Part shown: positions 35,553 to 36,056 of the stretch, piece after piece | Layout: every line of letters starts with the position of its first letter | Position numbering within the stretch: position 1 is the first letter of the stretch | Notes under the pieces: generated by a model | The model's database searches: none | What the model was told of the DNA's origin: nothing | Seen by the model: the letters and a program-made list of their open reading frames with translations, nothing else | From: Deltaproteobacteria bacterium | GTDB lineage: Bacteria > Desulfobacterota > GWC2-55-46 > UBA9637 > GWC2-42-11 | Reading direction: 5' to 3' | NCBI GenBank assembly: GCA_016223005.1 | Contig: JACRPW010000013.1 | Location: forward strand, 1,337-40,267 | Length of the DNA: 38,931 nt | Made by a program: the position numbers and the translations under genes

Positions 35553-36056
35553 GCCAAAGCCAGACCATAAGCCGGATCCTGTATCCTGTCCTTTCACATA
35601 CCTTAAGTAGTTGAAAGGGCAGGGTGATGGTCATTCATCTAGTCCTTATGTTGCCATAAGGGTCGAGCGGCCAACCCGTTTCGTCTTCTGTTTCCAGAAA
35701 AGAGCAGGCAACTCTTATAACGAAACCTATTAGGCCTTGCTCCGGGAGGGGGTTGCCTAGCCTCCAGTGTCGCCACCAGAGCTGGTGGGCTCTTACCCCA
35801 CCGTTTCACCCTTACCCACCGAGACTTCGTCTCGGAGTCATAAGTCATTAGTCATCAGTTACAAGTAAAAAAAGTACTCATTACTTTTGACTTTTGACAG
35901 ATAACTCGCACCGTGAGGTGCGGGGCGGTTTGCTTTCTGTTGCCCTGTTCCCTGGGGTTACCCCGGTCGCTGTTAGCGACCTCCCTGCCCTGCGGAGTCC
36001 GGACTTTCCTCTCGGGAGGGTTTAATCTCCCCAGCGACCATCTGGTCTGCTTTGGC
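35553..36056 (-). ncRNA. rnpB: RNase P RNA, class A, with enlarged P12-region insert
   Basis: The catalytic RNA of RNase P removes tRNA 5' leaders. On the minus strand the 5' part has GAGAGGAAAGTCCGGACTCC, the middle has ACAGAAAGCAAACCGCC and GGTAAGGGTGAAACGGTG then GGTAAGAGCCCACC, and the 3' part ends in GGATCCGGCTTATGGTCTGG, all conserved RNase P blocks. GCCAAAGC with AGACCA at the 5' end pairs with TGGTCT and GCTTTGGC at the 3' end to close helix P1, fixing the ends. At about 504 nt it is longer than usual, largely because the P12 position holds a 63-nt heptamer array (35835-35897). The 5' 35 nt overlap the end of the RNase HI gene. Confidence 0.93.
35835..35897. repeat. heptamer array inside RNase P RNA
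   Basis: Nine 7-nt steps on the plus strand: GAGTCAT, AAGTCAT, TAGTCAT, CAGTTAC, AAGTAAA, AAAAGTA, CTCATTA, CTTTTGA, CTTTTGA. The first and last units are near-reverse complements, so the array can fold back as an extension of the P12 helix. Confidence 0.85.

Follow-up and report, generated by a model that had tools for sequence, protein, structure and literature searches.

The RNase P RNA gene (rnpB) in the window, i.e. the whole 38,931-nt stretch of DNA analysed here, carries in its helix P12 an insert built of 7-nt repeats (heptads) whose two arms are predicted to pair with each other. We consider it likely that a heptad hairpin of the STRR type has been expanded or inserted in this helix of a class A RNase P RNA that still works, and is tolerated there as a peripheral extension, with the insert retained in the RNA and neutral. 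The gene is located as follows:

35552..36053, minus strand: rnpB, bacterial RNase P RNA class A, the sole match to RF00010 in the genome

The gene scores 277 bits against Rfam RF00010 (gathering threshold 100), and the match covers model positions 1–367 and is not truncated. It is the only match to this model in the 1.82-Mb genome of the window (G000, rated 100% complete), where the partner gene rnpA is also present (PF00825, E 2.7e-27, G000:C20). This gene, L001 in the comparisons below, encodes a class A RNase P RNA, which is predicted to be a working ribozyme. An RNase HI-like ORF is found on one side of it and a SelB ORF (33607–35490) on the other. The RNase HI-like ORF (36022–36642) shares 32 nt with the 5′ end of rnpB on the same strand (36022–36053). 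The nearest named relatives of the SelB protein belong to "Deltaproteobacteria" MAGs (71% and 65%), and by this comparison the host is not a heterocyst-forming cyanobacterium. Elsewhere in the window, a stretch at 24233–24301 matches the Rfam tRNA model with 37.7 bits, has a poor T arm and is not called by ARAGORN; it is possibly a decayed or odd tRNA gene.

In the RF00010 alignment, the extra sequence of the reported stretch is all contained in a single hairpin, lying between ACCGCC and GGUAAGGGUGAAA; we take this hairpin to be helix P12 in the standard layout. The covariance model places the repeats in P12, with the flanks ACAGAAA..ACCGCC and GGTAAGGGTGAAA, and the conserved core is spared. 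A location of the array outside the RNA or in the conserved core is ruled out by the same alignment. The region is organized into the following parts:

35815..35924, minus strand: P12 region with insert, a CCC/GGG base and three hairpins forming a predicted four-way junction (MFE fold, covariation in four sequences)
35908..35921, minus strand: hairpin 1, GCACC-UCAC-GGUGC, the old P12 tip (fold; counterpart CCGCATAATTTAATTGTGCGAGG in the uninserted relative L003)
35835..35907, minus strand: hairpin 2, the inverted heptad arms, containing the originally reported 35835–35897 (TRF, fold, period-7 scan)
35820..35834, minus strand: hairpin 3, CGAGAC-GAA-GUCUCG, beside the heptad hairpin (relatives, covariation)

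The first-pass annotation had described nine 7-nt steps at P12. Their position at P12 stands in the RF00010 alignment, but nine uniform heptamers are not what is found. TRF detects AGTCATA in 3.4 copies at 35836–35859 and ACTTTTG in 2.3 copies at 35883–35898. In the RNA sense, the period-7 scan finds GTCAAAA-type heptads in the 5′ arm (rnpB nt 156–179) and TGACTAA-type heptads in the 3′ arm (nt 195–218). Since both arms pair with each other in frame in the predicted fold, the 63 nt consist of two arms in inverted orientation on either side of a U-rich loop. A single direct array of nine units is ruled out by the inverted arms (TRF, fold and period-7 scan). The predicted heptad stem consists of steps of 3–7 bp between 1x1 or 2x2 internal loops, and its terminal loop is the U-rich one. 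The ends of the array had been called roughly complementary, and this is borne out by the folds and the covariation, in which a closed peripheral helix is kept. The further proposal, a simple lengthening of a peripheral helix, is correct in that the insert is peripheral and P12 closed, but an added hairpin turns the helix into a predicted four-way junction. This junction is predicted from the local fold and not from a fold of the whole RNA. The P12 region (111 nt) folds at −44.8 kcal/mol (z −6.56), and none of 200 shuffled sequences is equally stable.

Covariation among four genomes supports the fold of the window's insert, with a signal that is real but modest. The alignment comprises the inserts of L001, L088, L090 and L103, and the structure was derived from one of the four, that of the window. 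With this structure 89.7% of cells are paired, vs 29–49% when it is slid by 1–3 columns. Double-sided changes are observed at seven pairs, whereas the shuffled mean is 3.1 and none of 500 shuffles reaches seven. Hairpin 3 has 100% of its cells paired, and two of its six pairs are changed on both sides. RNAalifold, run unaided, gives a covariation term of only −0.44; its structure loses hairpin 1 but retains hairpin 3 and the larger part of the heptad stem. A closed helix is predicted for each of the six heptad P12s (z −2.5 to −7.0).

Heptads are found in P12 of five of the ten rnpB genes of the order. The RF00010 search of the order recovers rnpB in 10 of 11 genomes, the missing one being a 62% complete genome. 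Measured between ACCGC and GGTAAGGG, P12 is 108 nt long in the window, 109 nt in L088 (G005), 103 nt in L090 (G010), 100 nt in L089 (G003) and 47 nt in L002 (G002). Comparison with related genomes, a check named by the first-pass annotation, thus separates these five genes from five uninserted ones (L003 and L084–L087), in which P12 is 16–22 nt long. The period-7 scan detects P12 segments in four of the ten, while the fifth (L090) is more degenerate and was judged by eye. Only two period-7 segments lie outside P12 across the ten genes, and these are short matches of 14 and 17 nt.

A three-hairpin plan is common to L001, L088 and L090 and is loosely present in L103, a gene from outside the order; hairpin 3 accompanies the heptad hairpin in L088 and L090 and, in diverged form, in L103. 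The P12 of L089 contains different heptads (AGTCTCT type) in a single long stem, and that of L002 is made of ATTTGAA/ATTTCAA units. Close relatives of the window's gene therefore carry unrelated repeats or none: L002 (core 85.2% identical) has other units and L003 (81.6%) has none. P12 has been entered several times by heptad inserts within this order.

In the rest of the class, a heptad P12 is present in one (L103, genome G061) of 40 further rnpB genes scanned, a set from which L181 and L182 were left out. For the phylum, 20 long rnpB genes were taken by length from the best 150 matches, a set in which long low-scoring genes may be missing. Among these 20, L193 has a P12 with a 17-nt period-7 stretch of marginal score, and several other P12s are long for other reasons. 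The long P12 arms of L183, L184, L186 and L187, from other families of the phylum, are of different origin, and some start with a GGCACTCAG stem. A second palindromic family of ~70 nt, CCAGCRCCACTT...AAGTGGYGCTGG, is found in or beside rnpB of six genomes of the class: L089 (in P3 and in a second helix before P12), L164, L166, L175, L178 and L179. It has at most three copies per rnpB region and is also seen elsewhere in L242 and L244. A pattern with strict spacing for this palindrome gives only one match in 62 genomes, in rnpB of G003.

Heptad arrays are abundant across this order and rare outside it. A 338-kb sample of the window's genome contains 69 period-7 segments (~20 per 100 kb, after dropping 5 N-runs), while each of the control periods 5, 6, 8, 9, 10, 11 and 13 gives 0–6 segments in an N-free count of the same sample. 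Eight of nine other genomes of the order (samples of 20–37 kb) have 15–40 segments per 100 kb, and G001 has 10.5. In contrast, fourteen other genomes of the class, with G061 left out, yield four period-7 segments in 276 kb.

Two forms of array are observed. Genes contain direct arrays, mostly 27–40 nt long, 11 of the 33 being perfect; the form seen between genes consists of inverted, more degenerate pairs. Of the 69 arrays, 33 are placed inside ORFs no shorter than 150 codons, and the other 36 are not. An inverted partner that outscores 20 random flanks accompanies 2 of the 33 arrays in ORFs vs 17 of the 36 elsewhere. The P12 insert belongs to the inverted, more degenerate form. The words are diverse (81 heptad classes among 127 arrays), and rnpB is one heptad target among many in this order.

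Several further arrays are observed in the window. Those in ORFs are at 9798–9831, 10352–10378, 13052–13086, 13391–13424 and 16747–16785, three of the five being perfect. In ORF 12509–14137 (heptosyltransferase II fused to GmhB), the arrays lie at a stretch of the heptosyltransferase that is three residues longer than in 1psw and in the interdomain linker. More heptad arrays are present at 3251–3321 and 24852–24895; at the former, AGCAGTA and ACTGCTC form an inverted heptad hairpin similar to that of P12. At the intergenic locus L114:8507–8600, a heptad hairpin is directly followed by a short CTCGC-GGA-GCGAG hairpin, an arrangement also seen in P12. Heptad arrays are also found in the selB neighbourhoods of unrelated named MAGs (L028, L049, L063 and L076), with as many as six arrays within 9 kb in one Bacillota bin. 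A pattern scan of viral contigs gives at least 80 loci.

The similarity of the inserts does not rank as that of the cores. Without P12, the rnpB core of the window is most similar to those of its own family (L002 85.2%, L003 81.6%), and the core of L088 likewise to those of its own (L086 92.2%). L001 and L088, which belong to different families, are 85.0% identical in the insert vs 70.2% in the core, and the likeness spans the two non-heptad hairpins, with the heptad part free of indels. Within a single family, L088 and L090 share 65.7% identity in the insert and 81.6% in the core. The binomial probability of at least 91 matches in the 107 insert positions at the core rate is 2.9e-4, with sites taken as independent. 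Vertical descent would predict the reverse ranking of insert and core identities; therefore, lateral exchange, or strong uneven constraint, is favoured over plain inheritance. The comparison suggests that the P12 module was laterally exchanged between families, and it probably passed between species. However, the 85/70 contrast could also arise by strong selection on the module, and a tract of ~110–130 nt is short for ordinary homologous recombination.

Among 62 genomes of the class, rnpB is the only place with a near-complete module, in G000 and G005 and partly in G010 and G061. Any match to the module occurs in 9 of the 62, and those outside rnpB are only pieces of the heptad arm. G061 has no period-7 segment in 48 kb yet carries heptads in its P12, which fits an arrival of its module from elsewhere, with a bin error as the alternative. 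An origin of the window's insert as a recent copy of another array in the same genome was rejected, as no other array matches better than 79% over 39 nt, which leaves no clear donor. A more far-reaching reading, which we hold to be rather improbable, is that P12 is a laterally traded slot. Very short recombination would then trade hairpin-forming modules, both heptad hairpins and the second palindromic family, among the rnpB genes of separate families, and the heptads would come from a heptad-making system that this order shares with Nostoc-type cyanobacteria.

The excess of insert over core identity (85.0 vs 70.2) could also be read as the result of purifying selection, which would have kept the module more similar than the core across two families. 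The module would then be a functional domain under selection that docks a protein or RNA or acts as a stabiliser, and its three-hairpin architecture is indeed kept with compensatory changes in L001, L088, L090 and, loosely, L103. We regard such a domain as unlikely, because close relatives (L002, L003, L084–L087 and L089) have no module or unrelated sequence in its place, and the inserts of L088 and L090 are just 65.7% alike within one family. It is still less probable that the heptad hairpin and its flanking hairpin were inserted in P12 as a unit, i.e. as a small mobile element similar to an SDR or MITE. This composite recurs at one site in distant families, and similar heptad arms occur elsewhere in the window's genome (31 matches, rnpB itself included). 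However, outside rnpB these are matches to heptad arms only, multiple copies of the whole unit are not found in the genome, and across the 62 class genomes the near-complete module is confined to rnpB, so the whole module as a dispersed element is ruled out for the sampled genomes. An intervening sequence, transcribed and then cut by RNase III or a similar enzyme to leave a fragmented but working RNA as with those of 23S rRNA, is the least probable: such sequences typically sit in long hairpins of peripheral helices and the predicted hairpin is stable, but the heptad stem is broken every 3–7 bp by 1x1 or 2x2 loops, a stem so interrupted is a poor RNase III substrate, and RNase P RNA is not known to undergo such excision.

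The tolerated heptad extension is the reading we prefer, and it would come about as follows. A heptad-generating process active across the genomes of the order would supply the repeats, and its products in genes and RNAs would persist only in loops or linkers able to accommodate them; in rnpB this place would be P12. Because both arms carry complementary heptads in phase, the insert would fold on itself; because P12 stays closed and the conserved core is untouched, selection would tolerate the insert and the longer-armed RNA would work. The insert is expected to be transcribed, retained in the RNA, neutral and laterally moved. The P12 arm would turn over within the order, giving relatives with unrelated heptads or none, and one version of the module seems to have moved from family to family through recombination of short tracts.

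In heterocyst-forming cyanobacteria, STRRs reportedly lengthen P12, have invaded close strains independently and are unnecessary in vitro. The P12 heptads described here parallel this expansion and work alike, outside the set of that lineage. The RNA, the 7-nt length of the repeats and the site in P12 are the same, whereas here the lineage is unrelated, an extra hairpin gives a predicted four-way junction and there are signs of exchange between families. The title of Vioque 1997 (NAR 25:3471), as it appears in the references of PMC2858038, states that STRRs occur in rnpB of heterocystous cyanobacteria. PMC2858038 itself reports P12 to be dispensable in cyanobacterial rnpB and to be a terminal helix without a universally conserved nucleotide. 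No report of heptad inserts in rnpB outside cyanobacteria was recognised among titles and abstract beginnings in the open-licence literature, which is a weak negative.

Another ribozyme provides a similar case: in the Nostoc tRNA-Leu intron, as described in PMC3488679, degenerate heptads pair into a hairpin in a peripheral stem and vary in copy number. Pairing degenerate heptads in a peripheral ribozyme stem are thus common to both, but the Nostoc ribozyme is a group I intron rather than RNase P, and its hosts are cyanobacteria. Three further papers describe genome-wide heptamers, namely TAACTGA in Beggiatoaceae (PMC4679880), GGGAATC in Xanthomonas and GGGGA(T/C)T in Nostoc (PMC4692102), and GGGACCG in Geobacter metallireducens (PMC2700814); the Xanthomonas and Geobacter arrays have mostly four copies. 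All are dispersed 7-nt arrays, intergenic and in some cases coding, as in the window's order. The arrays of this order have many words and many inverted partners, whereas these papers focus on one or a few words.

A search of the P12 region against 72,556 plasmids returns three records, all from Nostoc, which match 26 nt of the 3′ heptad arm at E 0.08–0.9 and are individually insignificant. The matching stretches carry heptads such as GTCATCAGTCATTAGTCATTAGTCATCAG, nearly the words of the window. Four of eight Nostoc plasmid arrays fall in heptad classes of the order, vs a mean of 0.85 of eight and a maximum of five for random genome heptamers (1000 draws), eight arrays being too few for this to count for much. 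The first-pass annotation had suggested that the same tolerance arose in an unrelated lineage. For P12 as the site and for a non-cyanobacterial host, as shown by SelB, this is upheld; the independence of the repeats is called into question, as Nostoc words recur and the module looks exchanged. Overall, the first-pass reading holds. The STRR-type expansion of P12 is known; new here are the unrelated lineage, the module with its predicted four-way junction and the evidence for its exchange across families.

A curiosity of heterocystous cyanobacteria thereby becomes a likely general rule, in which genomes flooded with heptads also receive inserts in RNase P RNA, and these settle in P12. P12 is a natural test bed for the load of foreign RNA on an essential ribozyme. 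The mismatch between insert and core (85% vs 70%) makes lateral exchange below the level of the gene testable within rnpB, and full-length rnpB should be used with caution for phylogeny in such groups. The heptad load, found across the order and rare in sister families, offers a clean comparison for finding the heptad maker.
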